Shown one piece after another: positions 4,550-21,057 of a stretch of DNA of 64,000 nt. The stretch's first letter is position 1, and every line of letters starts with the position of its first letter. Below the pieces are notes generated by a model. That model had not been told where the DNA came from. It saw nothing but the letters and a program-made list of their open reading frames with translations, and made no database searches. Source of the stretch: Planotetraspora phitsanulokensis (GTDB lineage: Bacteria > Actinomycetota > Actinomycetes > Streptosporangiales > Streptosporangiaceae); contig NZ_BOOP01000003.1 of the NCBI RefSeq assembly GCF_016863295.1, positions 248,001-312,000 of the forward strand, given 5' to 3'. The position numbers and the translations under genes were made by a program.

Positions 4550-5167
4550 ATGCGAGCGGGCACGATCGGTGCGCCGATCCTCGCAGTGGTCACGGTGTTG
4601 CTCGTCACGCGGTGCCTCGCCGCCGGGCCGGCCGCCCATTCGAGCCATCTGGCAGCTCAGGCGCAGGCCGTGCAGCCGATTCCGGGCGGCGCACCGGCAC
4701 CAGCGGTCGCCTCGTCGGACTCCTTCAACGCGACCGACGTCGCGTGGTTACAACTGATGATCCCGATGACCGAGCAGGCCGTGCGGCTCTTCGATCTGGC
4801 CCTGGACAAGACCTCCAACCCGGAGATCGTGTCGTTGTCCAAGACCCTAGGCGCCGCGCATCGCGCCGAGCTGGAGCACCTGCACCGCCTGCTCGACCGG
4901 TCAGGCATTCCGTACGTGAACGTGCACGAGGGACACAACATGCCGGGCATGGTGACGGCGGCCGATCTCGAAGCGATCAACGCGGCCGACGGCGCGGCGT
5001 TCGACCGGCTCTTCGCCCAGCACGCGCGCGACTTCCTCAGGCAGTCCGTGCTGGTGGCGCAGGGAGAGCAGGACCAGGGGGCCGACGCGGACACCAAGGC
5101 GTTCGCCGCGACGATGGCCGAGGCTCACGCGGGTGAGCTCACCGGGCTCGAAGGTGTCGGGCAGTGA
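4550..5167 (+). CDS. DUF305 domain secreted protein
   Basis: A 205-residue exported protein: hydrophobic N-terminal segment (residues 5-25), a Pro/Ala linker, then a DUF305 four-helix domain from about 60 to 200. DUF305 proteins are periplasmic or surface helical bundles, often linked to metal handling. The usual MIxHHxxA motif is changed here: the helix reads LQLMIPMTEQAV, so the paired His is replaced by Pro-Met. Later conserved points remain, such as AAHRAELEHL, a HEGHNMPGM loop and QHARDFL. GTG of the reductase gene overlaps the stop, indicating an operon. A role in electron or metal exchange with that reductase is inference. Confidence 0.85.
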   Translation: MRAGTIGAPILAVVTVLLVTRCLAAGPAAHSSHLAAQAQAVQPIPGGAPAPAVASSDSFNATDVAWLQLMIPMTEQAVRLFDLALDKTSNPEIVSLSKTLGAAHRAELEHLHRLLDRSGIPYVNVHEGHNMPGMVTAADLEAINAADGAAFDRLFAQHARDFLRQSVLVAQGEQDQGADADTKAFAATMAEAHAGELTGLEGVGQ

Positions 5168-15405: not shown

Positions 15406-15827
15406 GCTCACCTGCCCTCTGTTCATGTGGTGACGACATTCGACACAACCGGTCCCGAACTCATACCCGGAGACCCGGTGCCGGCCGCACCTCGAATGAT
15501 CGAATGCGTAAACGTTTGGTCGTGCCTTGCCGTCATGCCTGCCAGGGCACCGGTTGTCCGGCGATTCCTTACTCGCCGGTGGAGCACAGGCCCTTCCGGA
15601 GTCCGCCCGCGTGAGCCTGGTATCACCGCCGCCACGATCACCCGGTCGCGCTGAGGCGTGGACGGAGTCGACCGTCGCCTCGTACGGCAGCAGCCCGTCC
15701 AGGGCCCTCCCCCGTGCCTGTATGTGGAATCGGCATAAGAAACGCGTCAACGTCCCTTGCCGGGGAACTTCCCGTGCCTCCATAGTGAATTCTCGAACGA
15801 GTCAAGCACCCGGAGGGGAGGGAACCG
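15406..15827. other. Intergenic region upstream of the TROVE locus
   Basis: About 420 bases between the divergent secreted-protein gene and a short ORF before the TROVE gene. Open frames here lack coding character and ribosome-binding sites. It should contain promoters for both directions. No operator symmetry stood out. Confidence 0.4.
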
Positions 15828-15914
15828 ATGGCACCACGGAGCCTCCGTGAGGACGTTCTCTGCCGCGAATGTGTTCCCTCCTCGTTTGTGCCCGTTCGAT
15901 GTCGCGTCCCCTAG
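15828..15914 (+). CDS. 28-codon short ORF upstream of TROVE gene
   Basis: ATG 15828 follows an excellent GGAGGGGAGGG site at 15812-15822. The peptide is 28 residues with three Cys (positions 12, 15, 25) and ends at TAG 15914. An inverted repeat CACGGAG/CTCCGTG (15835-15849) sits just inside the ORF. It could be a translated leader peptide or a small functional peptide; it is also possible that the site is chance. No homologue is known to me. Confidence 0.35.
   Translation: MAPRSLREDVLCRECVPSSFVPVRCRVP
15835..15849 (+). repeat. Perfect inverted repeat in short ORF
   Basis: CACGGAG-C-CTCCGTG, 7-base arms with a one-base centre. As DNA it is a compact palindrome; as RNA the loop would be too tight unless the end pairs open. 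It may be a regulator site downstream of the promoter. Confidence 0.4.
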
Positions 15915-16065
15915 TCCGGACGCCTATTCGAGGTGACGGGGTTCTGCCGCGTTGAGGCCGACCCGCACCACGCCGTGACCACGACAACGTGATCCGGCGA
16001 GACGGCCTCCCGGTGAACGCCGTTGGCCGGCGAATGGGGGACGCGGCCGGGCATGCCGCCCCTCT

Positions 16066-16104
16066 GTCACCATGCCTCCGGCATTCACGGATGAATCCGG
16101 TGAC
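16066..16104 (+). ncRNA. Cloverleaf-like foldable element in the TROVE leader
   Basis: GTCACC (16066-16071) pairs with GGTGAC (16099-16104). Between them are two perfect hairpins, ATGCC-TCC-GGCAT (16072-16084) and a TTCA/TGAA stem with a CGGA loop (about 16085-16095, sharing its first base context). The result is a small three-way junction. Another GGTGAC occurs near 15932, so alternative pairing is possible. Bacterial Ro60 (Rsr) genes are known to lie beside Y RNA genes with tRNA-like modules; whether this is one is inference from position and fold only. Confidence 0.35.
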
Positions 16105-16169
16105 TCCATTTCGGGAGGCCCTTTCCGAGGGCGGGAACAGGTTTCCCGTCCATTAATGGAGAAAGGTCA

Positions 16170-17582
16170 ATGACCACACCTCACTCCCTCGCGCCTTCAG
16201 CCGTCTCAACCGCCAAGAGGGAATTGTTCCTACTCGCCGCGCGTGGCCTGGCCGACGGGGACGCGCAGGATCCGGGCGACCGATTCGCCGCCCTGACCGG
16301 TCAACTGACGGTCGCCGACGACACGTGGGTGCGCGCCCTCATCGACTGGACACGCCGGCAGCCCGCGCTGCGCTGGTTCGGCATCGCGCTCACCGTGGAG
16401 TTCGTCCACGCGCGAACGGCGGCCGGGCTCGGCACTCCCGGCGAGACACGCGAGCTGATCGGCACCCTGCTGACCCGCGCCGACGAGCCGGGCGACCTGC
16501 TCGCGCACTGGACCCGCCGTCATGGCCGCTCGATCCCCAAGGCGGTCAAGGCAGGCGTGGCCGACGCCGCCGAGCGGCTGTACGACGAAGTCGCGCTCGC
16601 CACCTACGACACCGCGGACGCCGCCATGCGCTTCGCCGAGGTCATCGCCCTCACCCACCCGAAGCCCGTCGGCAAGATCCAGAACGAGATCTTCCAGCAC
16701 GCGGCGCTTCGCCGGCGCGGCTCCCACCCGGTTCCCGAGTCGCTGACGACGCTGCGGGCGCGGGCCCAGCTGCAGGCCGTGCCCGCCGACAAGCGTCTGC
16801 GCATGCTCGACCGGCCCGATGTCGCCGGCCTCTTCGTCCAGGCCGCGATGTCCTGGCGACAGGTGCGCACCTGGCTGGGCGGGACGATGACCGACAAGGC
16901 ATGGGCGACGGTCGCGGCCCAGATGAGCTACCGGGACCGGCTGGAGCACCTGCGTGACTTCGACCAGACGGACCTGGCCGGCGAGGTCGCCGACTCGATC
17001 TCGGCCGACCTCGCGGAGGAGAAGTCGGTGACGCGCGGCCGAGTCCTCCTGGTGGAGATCATGGCCGCGTACCGTTCAGTCCCCTCGTCACGATGGTCAT
17101 GGGCGCTGGAACAGGCCCTGACCCATGCGCTGACCGAGGTCCCCGCCCTGGCGGGTCGCACGCTGATCCTGGTGGACCGCAGCAAGGCGATGCTCGAACC
17201 GGCCTTCGCCGGGTCGGCTCTGACCCGAGCGGACGCGGCGGCCGTCTTCGGCGCCGCCCTCGCACTGCGGTCCTCCTCCGCCGACCTGGTCGAATGCGGG
17301 CAGGCCACCGGACCGGTGGCGTTCGAGAGCGCCGACCGCCTGATCGACGCCGTCGGCCGGTTCGGCGAGCCGGGCGGCGACCAGACGGTCGCCAAGGCCC
17401 TGCGCGAACACGTGAAGGGACATGACCGCGTCGTCGTCCTCACCCACCCCGGCGCCGCTGTCGAAGCGGCGGAAGCCGTGACCGTGCCCGGCCACGAGCA
17501 CATCATCACCGACGTCAACGACGGCTGGTTCGCGGCGATCCCGCACATCGAGCTGGCGCGCACAGGCGCCTGGCCCTTCTGA
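16170..17582 (+). CDS. rsr: TROVE domain protein (bacterial Ro60/Rsr)
   Basis: A 470-residue Ro60-like ring protein. ATG 16170 follows GAGAAAGG. The TROVE HEAT-like helical repeat region spans about residues 15-320 (for example RQPALRWFGIALTVEFVHAR and HPKPVGKIQNEIFQHAALRRRG) and a von Willebrand A-like domain follows from about 325 to 465. The metal-site motif DxSxS reads DRSKA near residue 335, so its third serine is lost. Ro60 binds misfolded and Y RNAs; bacterial forms work with PNPase in RNA decay or maturation and in stress recovery. Downstream is a bL37-like ribosomal peptide gene. The upstream leader may hold a Y RNA (inference). Confidence 0.9.
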   Translation: MTTPHSLAPSAVSTAKRELFLLAARGLADGDAQDPGDRFAALTGQLTVADDTWVRALIDWTRRQPALRWFGIALTVEFVHARTAAGLGTPGETRELIGTLLTRADEPGDLLAHWTRRHGRSIPKAVKAGVADAAERLYDEVALATYDTADAAMRFAEVIALTHPKPVGKIQNEIFQHAALRRRGSHPVPESLTTLRARAQLQAVPADKRLRMLDRPDVAGLFVQAAMSWRQVRTWLGGTMTDKAWATVAAQMSYRDRLEHLRDFDQTDLAGEVADSISADLAEEKSVTRGRVLLVEIMAAYRSVPSSRWSWALEQALTHALTEVPALAGRTLILVDRSKAMLEPAFAGSALTRADAAAVFGAALALRSSSADLVECGQATGPVAFESADRLIDAVGRFGEPGGDQTVAKALREHVKGHDRVVVLTHPGAAVEAAEAVTVPGHEHIITDVNDGWFAAIPHIELARTGAWPF

Positions 17583-17592
17583 GAGAGATCAC

Positions 17593-17670
17593 ATGTCCAA
17601 GCGTGCCCGCAAGAAGCGCGCCCGTAGGAAGAAGAACGCCAACCACGGAATGAGACCCGGCAGAGGCTGA
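17593..17670 (+). CDS. Ribosomal peptide bL37-like
   Basis: A 25-residue, strongly basic peptide: MSKRARKKRARRKKNANHGM then RPGRG. It matches the actinobacterial large-subunit protein bL37 pattern, a start MxKRxRKxR followed by KANHGKRP-like end, here NANHGMRP. GAGAGAGATC lies just before the ATG, and the gene starts 10 bases after the TROVE stop, so both may be one transcript. bL37 binds 23S rRNA in the mycobacterial ribosome (family knowledge). Too short for normal gene callers. A Met replaces the usual Lys before RP. Confidence 0.75.
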   Translation: MSKRARKKRARRKKNANHGMRPGRG

Positions 17671-17676
17671 GGTTCG

Positions 17677-17705
17677 GGGGCTCCGGCGCATCGCGCCGGA
17701 GCCCC
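17677..17705 (+). terminator. Strong hairpin terminator after bL37
   Basis: GGGGCTCCGGCGC (17677-17689) pairs with GCGCCGGAGCCCC (17693-17705) across a 3-base loop, followed by TTCCCC. It ends the rsr-bL37 unit and could also serve the convergent ABC exporter operon. Confidence 0.85.
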
Positions 17706-17744
17706 TTCCCCGGTTCTCGCATCCCCGATTCGAGCCGCCGGCGC

Positions 17745-18548
17745 TCAGCGGCTGACCGCCTTCTTGTAGAGCCGCGTCGCCAGGGGCACGAACACGGCCA
17801 GGATCAGCGCCGACCACAGCAGCGACACCTCCACCGCGTGCCGGAGCGGCCATGCGTCGGAGACAGGCAAGGCGGGGCTGGTGTTGCCGAACAGGGTTCG
17901 CGCCGCCTGGACGATCGTGGAGACGGGGTTCCACTCGGCGACGGCCTTCAGCGGGCCGGGCAGCCGGGAGCTGTCGACGAAGACGTTCGACAGGAACATC
18001 AGCGGCATCGACACGACGGTGGCGACGTTGTTGAACACCTCGGGCGTCCGCAGAGCCAGCGCGACCGTCGCCGTCACCCAGGAGAACGCGTAGGAGAAGA
18101 ACAACAGCAGCAGGAAGCCCATGACCGCCTCGTATGGCGTCGTGTGGATGCGCCAGCCCACGAGCAGCCCCACCAGGGCCATCACGACGATGCTGGTGAG
18201 GTTCATGAGCACGTCGCAGAGGGTCTGGCCGATCAGCACCGCCGACGGCGCCATCGGCAGCGTGCGGAACCGGTCGAAGATGCCCTTCCGCAGGTCCAGG
18301 GTCAGGGTGTAGCCGGTGATCTGCGCGCCTGAGACGATCGCCACGACGAACACCCCGGGAACCATGTACTCCCGGTACGAGACGCCGGGCATCTCGATCA
18401 TGCTGCCGAAGACGTAGGCGAACAGCAGCACGAACACGATCGGGAGGATGACCGCGCCCCCCAGTTGGTCGGGGGCACGCTTGATCTTCAGTGCGTTGCG
18501 CCTGGTGATCGTCACGCCGTCGGCTATCGCCGTCTGCAGGGCGTTCAT
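17745..18548 (-). CDS. ABC-2 type exporter permease (DrrB family)
   Basis: A 267-residue permease with six membrane helices and the ABC-2 membrane fold. An N-terminal polar part (residues 1-35) precedes helix 1 (AVILPIVFVLLFAYVFGSM), and the cytoplasmic segment FDRFRTLPMAPSAVLIGQTLCD, typical of the DrrB/NodJ group, lies between helices 2 and 3. It partners the ATPase encoded just upstream, with an ATGA overlap. Such DrrAB pairs export drugs, lipids or glycolipids; the substrate is not predictable. One copy of each gene suggests a dimer of each subunit. Confidence 0.92.
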   Translation of the reverse strand: MNALQTAIADGVTITRRNALKIKRAPDQLGGAVILPIVFVLLFAYVFGSMIEMPGVSYREYMVPGVFVVAIVSGAQITGYTLTLDLRKGIFDRFRTLPMAPSAVLIGQTLCDVLMNLTSIVVMALVGLLVGWRIHTTPYEAVMGFLLLLFFSYAFSWVTATVALALRTPEVFNNVATVVSMPLMFLSNVFVDSSRLPGPLKAVAEWNPVSTIVQAARTLFGNTSPALPVSDAWPLRHAVEVSLLWSALILAVFVPLATRLYKKAVSR

Positions 18549-19525
18549 CGGCTGTGCTCCTTCGCGTTCGTCGCGTTCTCCCGCGCGGTCGCCTCGTGCC
18601 CGGTGAGCGTGAGGAAGACGTCGTCCAGCGTCGGCCGCCGCAGGCCGACATCGCGTACGGTGACCCGCTCGGCCGCCAGCATGCCGAGGGCGTCGGTGAG
18701 CGATGCCGCGCCATGGGCCACCGGGACCGTCACCTGGAGTGCGGTGGCATCGGTCTGCGTGTCTCCGACGGCGAGGGGGGCCAGCGCCCGCCGTATGGTC
18801 TCGAGGTCGGCCTCGTTCGTCACCGTCAGCTCGATCCGGTCACCGCCGACCTGATCCTTGAGTTCGTCGGCCGTGCCCCGCGCGATCACCCGGCCGTGGT
18901 CGACGACCGCGATCTCGTCGGCGAGCCGATCGGCCTCCTCCATGTACTGAGTGGTGAGCAACAGCGTCGTGCCGCCGGCGACAAGCTCGGATATGACGTC
19001 CCACAGCCCCACCCGCGCTCGGGGGTCGAGGCCGGTCGTGGGCTCGTCGAGGAACAGGACGGGCGGGTTGGCGACCAGCGCCCCGGCGAGATCGAGCCGG
19101 CGCCGCATGCCTCCGGAGTAGCCCTGCACCGGGCGGCTTCCCGCCTCCACCAGGTCGAAGCGTTCCAGCAGTTCTCGGGCGCGCTCTTTGCTCTGTTTGG
19201 TGCCCAGGTGATAGAGGCGTCCCACCATCTCGAGGTTCTCCGCGCCGGTGAGGTGGTCGTCGACCGCGGCGTACTGTCCGGACGCTCCGATGTGGGATCG
19301 CAGCCGCCGGGCGTCGCCGACGACGTCGAATCCGGCGACGGTGGCACGGCCGGCGTCCGGCTTCAGCAAGGTGGTCAGGATCCGCACGGCCGTCGTCTTA
19401 CCGGCGCCGTTCGGGCCGAGCAGCCCGAACACCGTCCCTTCGGGGACCGACAGATCCATCCCGTCCAGGGCGGTCACGTGGCCGTACTTCTTGACCAGGC
19501 CTTCGGCCATGATCGCGGGGGGCAT
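18545..19525 (-). CDS. ABC exporter ATP-binding protein (DrrA family)
   Basis: A 326-residue ATPase starting at ATG 19525 after GAGGAGAAACC. Walker A is GPNGAGKTT (about residues 38-46), the Q-loop is near 85, the signature is YSGGMRRRLD (about 139-148) and Walker B is LFLDEPTTGLD (about 163). After residue 230 a DrrA C-terminal domain (about 235-310) ends in TVRDVGLRRPTLDDVFLTLTG, the family hallmark. It powers the DrrB-like permease in the overlapping downstream gene and exports an unknown hydrophobic substrate. Confidence 0.93.
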   Translation of the reverse strand: MPPAIMAEGLVKKYGHVTALDGMDLSVPEGTVFGLLGPNGAGKTTAVRILTTLLKPDAGRATVAGFDVVGDARRLRSHIGASGQYAAVDDHLTGAENLEMVGRLYHLGTKQSKERARELLERFDLVEAGSRPVQGYSGGMRRRLDLAGALVANPPVLFLDEPTTGLDPRARVGLWDVISELVAGGTTLLLTTQYMEEADRLADEIAVVDHGRVIARGTADELKDQVGGDRIELTVTNEADLETIRRALAPLAVGDTQTDATALQVTVPVAHGAASLTDALGMLAAERVTVRDVGLRRPTLDDVFLTLTGHEATARENATNAKEHSR

Positions 19526-19772
19526 GGGGTTTCTCCTCTGCTCGTTTCGGGGGCCTGCCTGTTCCTGGGCATGGCGGCATGGCGGACGGTCGGTTTCCGG
19601 CCGTCCGGCTCGCGGTGTTGCCGTTGTCGACGACTGGGGATCAGCCGTCGGAAGAGTCGATCGGCGACCGTGTGACGGGCATGCACAGGACGCCTGCGTG
19701 CCGCCACCCGGGTATGCCCGATCGATCAGCGCGGGGAATGCCGCCGCCGGGCGAGCGGCGCACGCTCATCGT

Positions 19773-20345
19773 TCAGCGGGGGGTTCCGAACCATCTGCGC
19801 CGGTGGCGGACCTTCAGGGAACCGTAGGTCAGCTCCCCGATGATCCGTACGTGAAGCCTCCCCGGACGCCTTCGCCCCGGCACCTTGCAGGTCACGCTGC
19901 CCCACTCGGAGAGTGCCTCATTCGCGTCCGCGGTCGCGCCGGGCGGAAGGAGGATCGTCGCGGAGCCGTGCCTGACGTGGAGCTGGATCTCGATCTCCGG
20001 ATGCTCGATGACGGCCTCGGACAGGTCGAGCTTCACGCCGCCGTACGTGGAGTCGACCCGCAGCAGGCGCGGAACCCGCCATTCGCCAGCTCGTTTGACG
20101 CTCCCGCCAGTGGACCTCAACTCGACCACGTCGTCCATGAGCTCGTCGGGCAGGCCGTCGACCGCCGCCATCAGATCGCCATGAGACGCGGCCGTGAGAG
20201 CCGACTCGAGCCGCTCGTCCATCTCCTCGGACGTCAGTCGTCCCTCGGTGAACGCCCGCTGAAGGCGCTGGACGACCCTGTCACGATCAGCGTCGGAGGC
20301 ACGCACCCCCGGTTCCGACATGTCCCTCAGCCTGGCCTCGGTCAT
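19773..20345 (-). CDS. DUF1707 domain protein
   Basis: A 190-residue protein starting at ATG 20345 after AGAAGG; ATG 20321 is a possible alternative. Residues about 12-64 are the DUF1707 (SHOCT-like) domain: VRASDADRDRVVQRLQRAF, TEGRLTSEEMDERLESAL, AASHGDLMAAVDGLP. The C-terminal part (90-180) is a beta-rich fold with DSTYGGVKLDLS and IEIQLHVRHGSATILLPPG, of the DUF2154/LiaF-like cell-wall sensing type. In actinobacteria such proteins are predicted to influence membrane or envelope stress responses; the exact role is unknown. It is alone between the exporter operon and the EXLDI gene. Confidence 0.88.
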   Translation of the reverse strand: MTEARLRDMSEPGVRASDADRDRVVQRLQRAFTEGRLTSEEMDERLESALTAASHGDLMAAVDGLPDELMDDVVELRSTGGSVKRAGEWRVPRLLRVDSTYGGVKLDLSEAVIEHPEIEIQLHVRHGSATILLPPGATADANEALSEWGSVTCKVPGRRRPGRLHVRIIGELTYGSLKVRHRRRWFGTPR

Positions 20346-20403
20346 GCCCTTCTCCTTCTGCTCGATCTTGTACGGGCGGTCCGGCGGACCACGCCGCGGC
20401 GAA

Positions 20404-20925
20404 TCAGATGTCGAGATCCTCGACGGCGGGACGCTCGGCCAGGTCGGCGATCAACTCGTAGAACTCGTCGGGCACCTTTCCACGCAGGTCCTGGAAGGAG
20501 TCGACGACGTCCAGCGTGGACTCACCCTGGACGAAGCCCCAGCTCGAATCGGCGAGGCCGAGGAGGCTCCGCCACGACAGCCAGTTCTCGGAATCCGCCC
20601 CGTTCGTCCAGTCGGGCGAGCGGTCCACGTGCAGGACGAACTTGCCCTTGCGGGACCGATAGACCCGGAACATCTCGACCCGGCTGCCGGTGGTGCGCCC
20701 CCACTCGCCGAGGAGCACCCCGGAGAATCGCTGCTTGCGCCCGACGCCCTGCAGGCCGACCTGCACGATGATCTCGTCGTAGCCCTCCTGGCGCCCCTCC
20801 TCCATCTCGATGTAGCGCCGCAGAGCCGCCGTGATCGCCTGAGACAGGTTCCCGCCGGCGAGCTCCTGCGCCCGGCGGAAAAGCATCAGGTCGTCGTCGG
20901 ACACGTAGATCGTCTTGTTCGGCAA
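20404..20925 (-). CDS. EXLDI family protein
   Basis: A 173-residue protein of the EXLDI family, named for its C-terminal motif, here EDLDI at the very end. I set the start at TTG 20925 because it gives the family's usual opening PNKTIYVSDDD and an AGGGAGGG site is correctly spaced; TTG 20931 is the longer option. Residues 1-45 look like a ribbon-helix-helix-type DNA-binding segment (KTIYVSDDDLMLFRRAQELA, NLSQAITAALRRYIE). The remainder is beta-rich and ends in a Trp-containing region. A 16-base perfect inverted repeat sits just upstream of its site, so autoregulation is very likely. Molecular function unknown. Confidence 0.88.
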   Translation of the reverse strand: MPNKTIYVSDDDLMLFRRAQELAGGNLSQAITAALRRYIEMEEGRQEGYDEIIVQVGLQGVGRKQRFSGVLLGEWGRTTGSRVEMFRVYRSRKGKFVLHVDRSPDWTNGADSENWLSWRSLLGLADSSWGFVQGESTLDVVDSFQDLRGKVPDEFYELIADLAERPAVEDLDI

Positions 20926-20933
20926 CGTCAACC

Positions 20934-20971
20934 CTCCCTCTTATACGTATGAGTCTACGTATAAGAGGGAG
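20934..20971. promoter_or_regulatory. 16-base-arm palindromic operator of the EXLDI gene
   Basis: CTCCCTCTTATACGTA (20934-20949), spacer TGAGTC, TACGTATAAGAGGGAG (20956-20971): 16 of 16 positions pair. The inner TTATACGTA/TACGTATAA part is AT-rich in a GC-rich region. It abuts the ribosome-binding site of the EXLDI gene, whose N-terminus looks like a DNA-binding ribbon-helix-helix. Confidence 0.85.
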
Positions 20972-21057
20972 AGTGCGGCAATGCCCTTCACATCGCCTGG
21001 GGGTTCAGGTCGCCTTCACCGAGTCCGGCTTCGGTCGTCGTACACAAGAAGACGTGG

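Follow-up and report, generated by a model that had tools for sequence, protein, structure and literature searches.

The closest described systems to the locus reported here include the bacterial Ro60 (Rsr) proteins with their YrlA-type Y RNAs, whose functions, as of 2020, are stated to have been studied in Deinococcus alone (PMC7790460). Deinococcus Rsr is reported to have a role in rRNA maturation and decay (PMC4726728), and in Salmonella a Ro60 protein belongs to the rsr-yrlBA-rtcBA RNA repair operon (PMC7790460). The short actinobacterial ribosomal protein bL37 is reported to interact strongly with H89 at the peptidyl-transferase centre (PMC5876184) and to contact the tip of 5S rRNA near that centre (PMC10085706), and in TnaC-type arrest peptides a proline before the stop codon is described as essential for regulated arrest (PMC10941005). 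We analysed a 64,000-nucleotide stretch of Planotetraspora phitsanulokensis DNA (contig NZ_BOOP01000003.1, positions 248,001 to 312,000; the window), from a soil actinomycete with a genome of 9.2 Mb (G000). In the window, a conserved leader precedes a divergent Ro60/TROVE gene and a bL37 gene on the forward strand; we interpret this putative operon as a Ro60-type system that has another kind of leader RNA and is partnered with a ribosomal protein. A preliminary description of the sequence had regarded such a coupling, should the leader be a Y RNA, as not previously described, and targeted searches of open-licence literature likewise gave us no description of a Ro60–bL37 operon.

The Ro60/TROVE gene is an open reading frame (ORF) of 470 amino acids at 16170–17582, and profile comparison and Foldseek both place its product in Ro60/TROVE, as first proposed. 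The Pfam TROVE model (PF05731) did not match the window protein even at E up to 10, and matched six of 16 TROVE-S proteins (the subfamily named below) at E up to 1 (best E 0.00018). A profile built from 16 relatives matched solved TROVE chains with E 7.9e-16 and Ro60 (1yvp) with E 9.8e-5. The AlphaFold model of the window protein had a mean predicted local distance difference test score of 90.3, and all 13 Foldseek matches to this model with E <= 0.001 were Ro60/TROVE proteins. As modelled, the protein has the HEAT-repeat ring and vWA fold that define the family and that it shares with bacterial Ro60/Rsr; it differs from these in the missing Pfam match, a lost metal motif, the bL37 partner and a locus in which no YrlA was found.

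We built a tree of 32 proteins with a midpoint root, comprising 13 canonical TROVE proteins and two sister clades for which we coined the names TROVE-S1 (12 proteins, including the window protein) and TROVE-S2 (seven, one of them partial). Support was 100/99 for each of the two clades, and the canonical clade was set apart at 100/100. Three TROVE genes are present in G000, namely the window gene, a copy that is 76% identical (C39) and a canonical copy (C11). The window protein is 40–43% identical to four canonical TROVE proteins. The DxSxS metal motif, which is common in the family and not strictly defining, was found in all 13 canonical rows and in none of the 18 full TROVE-S rows; the third metal loop reads LTH in the full TROVE-S rows, where four canonical proteins compared with the window protein have [TS]D. 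By sequence, TROVE-S forms a branch of the Ro60 fold with good support and has lost the DxSxS motif. Ratios of non-synonymous to synonymous substitution of 0.23–0.40 in six Planotetraspora pairs indicate that the gene is kept by selection.

Full-length TROVE-S matches (at least 665 bits, the next score being 499) occurred in 13 of 341 genomes scanned at the family level, including all five Planotetraspora genomes and eight others. These scores are high by construction because the query alignment, A1, holds most of the TROVE-S proteins, the two G324 genes being the new ones. A class-level sample of 394 genomes yielded no further genome at this level: a search at E 1e-135 returned the window's own genome, G068 and G387, and we rejected the latter two as carriers since their 454–455 bits correspond to canonical TROVE. 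Our gene counts exclude the TROVE-S fragments L066, L072, L073 and L074, near which we saw no bL37-like ORF, and a relic copy in G003 (C49). In G104, TROVE-S2 (L065:3318-4871) is interrupted at the loop of the vWA metal site by an extended repeat rich in proline, arginine and serine. Genus g58 encodes a more divergent TROVE-like group (L067, L068, L069, L070, L075 and L076; 27–34% identity to the window protein) that, by eye, likewise lacks the DxSxS motif.

The bL37 gene lies at 17593–17670, 10 bp behind TROVE-S1 where the preliminary description had placed it. It encodes 25 amino acids that score 37.3 bits against NF047428 (curated cut-off 30) and also match the bL37 chains of the PDB. The window copy resembles published actinobacterial bL37 in length, basic motif and score over the cut-off; it differs from the single canonical gene in being an additional copy linked to a Ro60 paralogue. 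Within G000, the operon copy (MSKRARKKR...) differs from the canonical protein (MGKRQRKSK...), and each of the five Planotetraspora genomes encodes one canonical bL37 (MGKRxRKSKARKKKKANHGKRPTGR) plus one paralogue for each TROVE-S1. A six-frame search of the seven Planotetraspora operon copies placed four over the family cut-off and three under it. Across the 341 genomes, NF047428 matched bL37 in 190 and nothing in 151, which indicates that this short model is not fully sensitive, and more than one match was found in nine. All nine carry TROVE-S1, and they represent nine of the ten TROVE-S1 genomes; the second copy in G126 and in G217 was positioned from separate locus data. bL37 directly follows 11 of the 12 TROVE-S1 genes, in four genera, with a gap of 10–14 bp or an overlap of 20 bp. 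By these comparisons, the bL37 beside TROVE-S1 is an extra paralogue in a genome that keeps its canonical bL37 and canonical TROVE elsewhere, and the linkage recurs among relatives and is not local to the window.

The predicted operon order is TROVE-S1–bL37, extended by TROVE-S2 in some genera, and in Planotetraspora it reads leader–TROVE-S1–bL37. TROVE-S2 lies downstream of bL37 in G168, G126 and G217; in G168, a gene for a bacterial PH-domain (bPH) membrane protein sits between the two (L057:1535-2041; PF10882, 30.1 bits). By eye, a similar bPH gene stands ahead of TROVE-S2 in G104 and G243. The Salmonella operon is likewise built around a Ro60 protein; as described in the source cited, it joins this to Y RNA and RtcBA, whereas the partners here are bL37 and, in some genera, bPH and a second TROVE. 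When 10–11 kb stretches around the second copy in G000 (C39) and the G001 copy were compared with window positions 5001–30000, the match was confined to the operon, which suggests that the operon moves or is duplicated as one block. We rejected plasmid and phage carriage: the matches to six plasmid records and the best 10 of 24 phage records were all under 60% identity.

We considered whether the bL37 copy has left the ribosome to act as a basic RNA-binding partner of TROVE-S or as a free peptide. The departure of its sequence from the canonical protein, which is itself present in all five Planotetraspora genomes, would fit such a role, as would the three operon copies under the cut-off and the reported activity of free bL37 against Gram-positive bacteria (PMC10085706). 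Its length and most of its motif are kept, however, and the window copy scores over the cut-off. The same report describes very little inhibition of Escherichia coli cell-free translation by bL37 of C. acnes, which does not suggest a role as a free inhibitor. We regard departure from the ribosome as unlikely.

Upstream of TROVE-S1, a putative promoter block spans 15746–15786, with GTCAA at 15746–15750, TTGCCG at 15757–15762, an 18-nt spacer and CATAGT at 15781–15786. When nine leaders from three genera were aligned, the GTCAA, CTTGC and AGTG columns were invariant, and by eye G104, G243 and G324 have a similar block. The assignment rests on this conservation because a scan for the sigma-70 consensus gave no match. 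Directly behind the block begins a short upstream ORF (uORF; 15828–15914) with a Shine–Dalgarno (SD) sequence at 15812–15824 and the predicted product MAPRSLREDVLCRECVPSSFVPVRCRVP-stop. The 28 codons, the strong SD and the three Cys codons of the preliminary description are all present, but only the last Cys is widely shared, and its position varies among leaders between C, S, W and G. For all leader counts we left out G168 S1, which lies at a contig edge, and G283, in which the leader looks deleted. Of 12 leaders, from five genera, 10 end in [RH]-[VI]-P-stop (eight starting with ATG and two with GTG) behind a variable body. This end is encoded by different Arg (CGC/CGG/CGT), Pro (CCC/CCT/CCA) and stop (TAG/TGA/TAA) codons, and its retention despite these changes speaks for selection on the peptide. 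The uORF shares with TnaC-type peptides a position behind the promoter and, in those 10 leaders, a proline codon directly before the stop. It has C12, V16 and S19 and not the W12, D16 and I19 given for TnaC in the source cited, and arrest is putative here. A hairpin covers the uORF stop codon (GCGTCC/GGACGC, 15904–15923; -10.4 kcal/mol, with none of 200 shuffles as good); by eye, an ACGTCCC/GGGACGT equivalent is found in the C39 copy and in G003.

Between the uORF and TROVE-S1, the leader folds into a predicted RNA domain of about 118 nt (16004–16121) that is closed by a stem we call P1 (16004–16012 with 16112–16120; arms GGCCTCCCG/CGGGAGGCC) and presents GGGCA (16049–16053) in its apical loop. 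The preliminary description was right about a structured leader; the conserved fold is different from, and larger than, the one pictured, a three-way junction at 16066–16104. The domain had a fold z-score of -3.15 (0 of 200 shuffles as good) and the junction one of -1.73 (14 of 200), both computed on stretches cut at stem ends and hence subject to the same bias as hand-picked arms. The GTCACC/GGTGAC stem of the junction exists in the sequence; it is absent from the minimum-energy fold of the whole domain, in which a small GGA/TCC hairpin inside it remains, and alignments read by eye retained the 39-nt junction in two of seven Planotetraspora copies (C3 and G002a). Among relatives, the uORF end is kept, as is P1 with some compensatory changes; the pictured junction is not. 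By sequence comparison, a conserved leader precedes the operon wherever the leader can be read, except in G283.

Among 18 upstream regions, P1 ranked as the longest of the long-range helices in 11, at 27–50 nt ahead of the gene, and a P1-like stem was seen by eye in 17, TROVE-S2 regions and the pre-bPH region of G243 among them; the TROVE-S2 upstream region of G126 showed no visible equivalent. The case for P1 rests on this conservation because single stems of its length are not rare (1–27 of 100 shuffles of single regions gave a stem as long). Over the 17 regions, 148 of 153 cells were paired and four of the nine pairs (3, 5, 6 and 8) had double changes. The arms were hand-picked by complementarity, which biases the paired percentage upward, and so the double changes are the stronger evidence; in the two rows with a T-A to G-C change, the closed structures are far shorter (40 nt in G104b and 28 nt in G168b). 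In nine distinct rows, 76 of 81 cells were paired with five double changes, and under neither of two schemes did any of 2,000 shuffles reach both values. RNAalifold predicted the same P1 stem from nine full-length domains. A model built from these nine domains (R1) matched at the expected positions in three untrained loci, L090, L065 and L061 (E 0.0017, 0.0052 and 0.012). Over the 13 TROVE-S genomes, R1 gave 12 matches. Nine were TROVE-S leaders, every one of which had served for training; at this scale the model did not recover leaders outside the training set, and two weak matches were unexplained (G001:C8, E 0.34; G104:C1, E 0.91). In G003, an R1 match (C49:34708-34875; 32.2 bits, E 0.03) overlies a short fragment of a TROVE-S C terminus, the apparent relic copy mentioned above.

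The preliminary description had raised the possibility that the leader is a Y RNA. Rfam searches at E up to 10 returned no YrlA or tRNA match in window positions 15500–17800 or in 11 TROVE-S loci (L061, L065 and L090 lay outside these permissive searches). As a control, Rfam YrlA (RF02553) was found upstream of canonical TROVE in all five Planotetraspora genomes (43.7–47.3 bits, E <= 1e-6); loci from two further genera scored 42.6 and 35.4 bits, making seven of seven loci; none is listed at the Rfam gathering threshold because every canonical-locus match falls below 69. We also made a Y RNA model from six canonical-locus matches of the window's own family (R2), which found two to four copies at seven of eight canonical loci and one at the eighth. 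Four tandem R2 matches lie upstream of the canonical TROVE of G000 itself (L003:874-1373, on C11), and L009, L011, L012, L015, L016 and L063 also have two to four copies. In the TROVE-S loci searched, the best R2 match had E 0.08 (G217, about 1.5 kb from the gene). ARAGORN gave no match for the window and none for six TROVE-S loci of Planotetraspora; its single match in G104 lies roughly 0.8 kb off on the opposite strand, and it was positive in 11 of 14 canonical loci. A YrlA-type, tRNA-like identity for the leader would agree with its place ahead of a Ro60-family gene, where Y RNA genes often lie, and one chance-level R2 match coincided with the G280 P1 domain (12.6 bits, E 0.63). Given the positive controls, a recognisable YrlA-type Y RNA is not supported by these models, and we consider this identity largely refuted and very improbable.

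A different proposal is that the domain is a new, non-tRNA-like Ro-binding RNA, either processed into a small RNA that replaces Y RNA or acting within the messenger in autoregulation. The size of the domain and its paired ends are Y RNA-like, the P1-like stem extends to TROVE-S2, and the TROVE-S loci searched are without the YrlA copies of canonical TROVE. A pattern describing the leader occurred at 13 places in the 341 genomes, seven of them TROVE-S leaders; it misses several true leaders, such as those of G001 and G217. The six other places were judged coding by eye, and a backwards control pattern likewise matched at least five places in the genomes listed, so we rejected the candidate of a wider regulon. 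The domain lies between uORF and gene, and we saw neither a promoter nor an end belonging to it; this speaks against a Ro-binding RNA, as does a length that ranges from 28 to 119 nt. A further point against it is the apical hairpin, which is in register in just five of the 12 domains with GGGCA and which we rejected as a conserved feature. We hold a Ro-binding RNA to be possible, if rather less probable than the explanation that we prefer.

We prefer to explain the locus as a leader-regulated operon that would co-produce a Ro60 paralogue and a bL37 paralogue, a putative ribosome-repair or remodelling unit acting on the quality of 50S subunits and rRNA, and we give this a probability of roughly 0.4. 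The leader peptide (R-x-[RH]-[VI]-P-stop in most leaders) would report the state of the peptidyl-transferase centre through slow termination. Impairment of the centre would slow termination at the uORF, change the fold of the leader and raise TROVE-S1 translation, the level of which would be set jointly by the peptide, the hairpin over the stop codon and the P1 domain. Translational coupling would then keep bL37 in step with TROVE-S1. By likeness to Deinococcus Rsr, TROVE-S may bind damaged or misassembled large-subunit rRNA, and the bL37 paralogue may fill the H89/5S pocket of the affected 50S subunits.

Several observations weigh against a leader-regulated ribosome-repair operon. The 12 uORF leaders derive from five genera only and two of them break the rule, with the start ATG lost in G001 and the end changed in G217. 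In the nine full-length domains, the covariation term of RNAalifold was unfavourable (+1.25) and double changes affected two of 24 pairs, including one P1 pair. R1 missed G217b, G243s2 and G168b, scored G324a at E 1.9 and G217a on the wrong strand only (E 0.28), and gave unrelated matches from E 0.11 to 0.6. Mimicry of rRNA in the leader was not beyond chance, and we rejected a 23S rRNA likeness after the best shared runs, for example GGTGAACGC(C), proved to be of chance length (six domains, 20 shuffles each). The three low-scoring Planotetraspora bL37 copies reach only 26.4–28.9 bits. The TROVE-S1 of G283 has neither leader nor bL37, and the S2-only genomes G104, G280 and G243 have a single bL37 match each, so TROVE-S can exist without the extra copy. 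At the G283 locus (L059), the leader seems to be missing as far as the start of the uORF and bL37 seems degenerate, so that both were apparently lost together.

In another account, the operon yields an ordinary Ro60-type messenger with a leader of no particular function, and bL37 is carried along by descent. In its favour, close relatives have a common history, P1 stems taken singly are not unusual in length alone, and covariation in the nine domains is weak. Against this, the linkage holds in four genera, the C39 and G001 stretches match the window over the operon only, the uORF end is kept with altered codons and four P1 pairs show double changes. We judge a plain messenger to be distinctly improbable.

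A more specific form of the repair proposal is equally hard to credit in full: a ribosome-repair cassette of a peptide sensor, a pair of Ro60 proteins without metal site (S1 and S2), a private bL37 for the H89/5S pocket, and the P1 RNA as Ro partner. If it were true, the P1 RNA would be Ro's own non-tRNA-like partner and S1 and S2 would capture faulty 50S subunits or rRNA. Short of that, the recurring pairing of TROVE-S with bL37 suggests that RNA surveillance is linked to the composition of the ribosome. A Ro60 branch that has no recognisable Y RNA at its locus, has lost its metal motif and is fixed to an extra copy of a ribosomal protein beside the peptidyl-transferase centre makes this link testable in actinomycetes, and the presence of canonical TROVE with YrlA and of TROVE-S with bL37 in the same cell offers a natural comparison.

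Minimum-energy folds also contained a possible hairpin (16120–16166) that would mask the SD of TROVE-S1 by pairing CCTTTCC (16120–16126) with GGAGAAAGG (16158–16166). C3, G002a and G001 showed it, G126a had a counterpart and C39 lacked it; such pairing arises easily by chance, and SD masking is a weak suggestion. Behind bL37, a GC-rich hairpin read from the sequence (GGGGCTCCGGCGC-ATC-GCGCCGGAGCCCC, 17677–17705) is the likely end of the operon; a run of T is absent, and the scan for terminators reported none. An Rfam BjrC68 match on this hairpin (26.3 bits, gathering threshold 39) was rejected. The adjoining 3.35 kb or so (17706–21056) are unmatched in the otherwise collinear G002 locus (L031), which points to an insertion here or a deletion there, and this segment contains, on the reverse strand at 17745–19525, a pair of ORFs that resemble an ABC-2 permease and an ABC ATPase.

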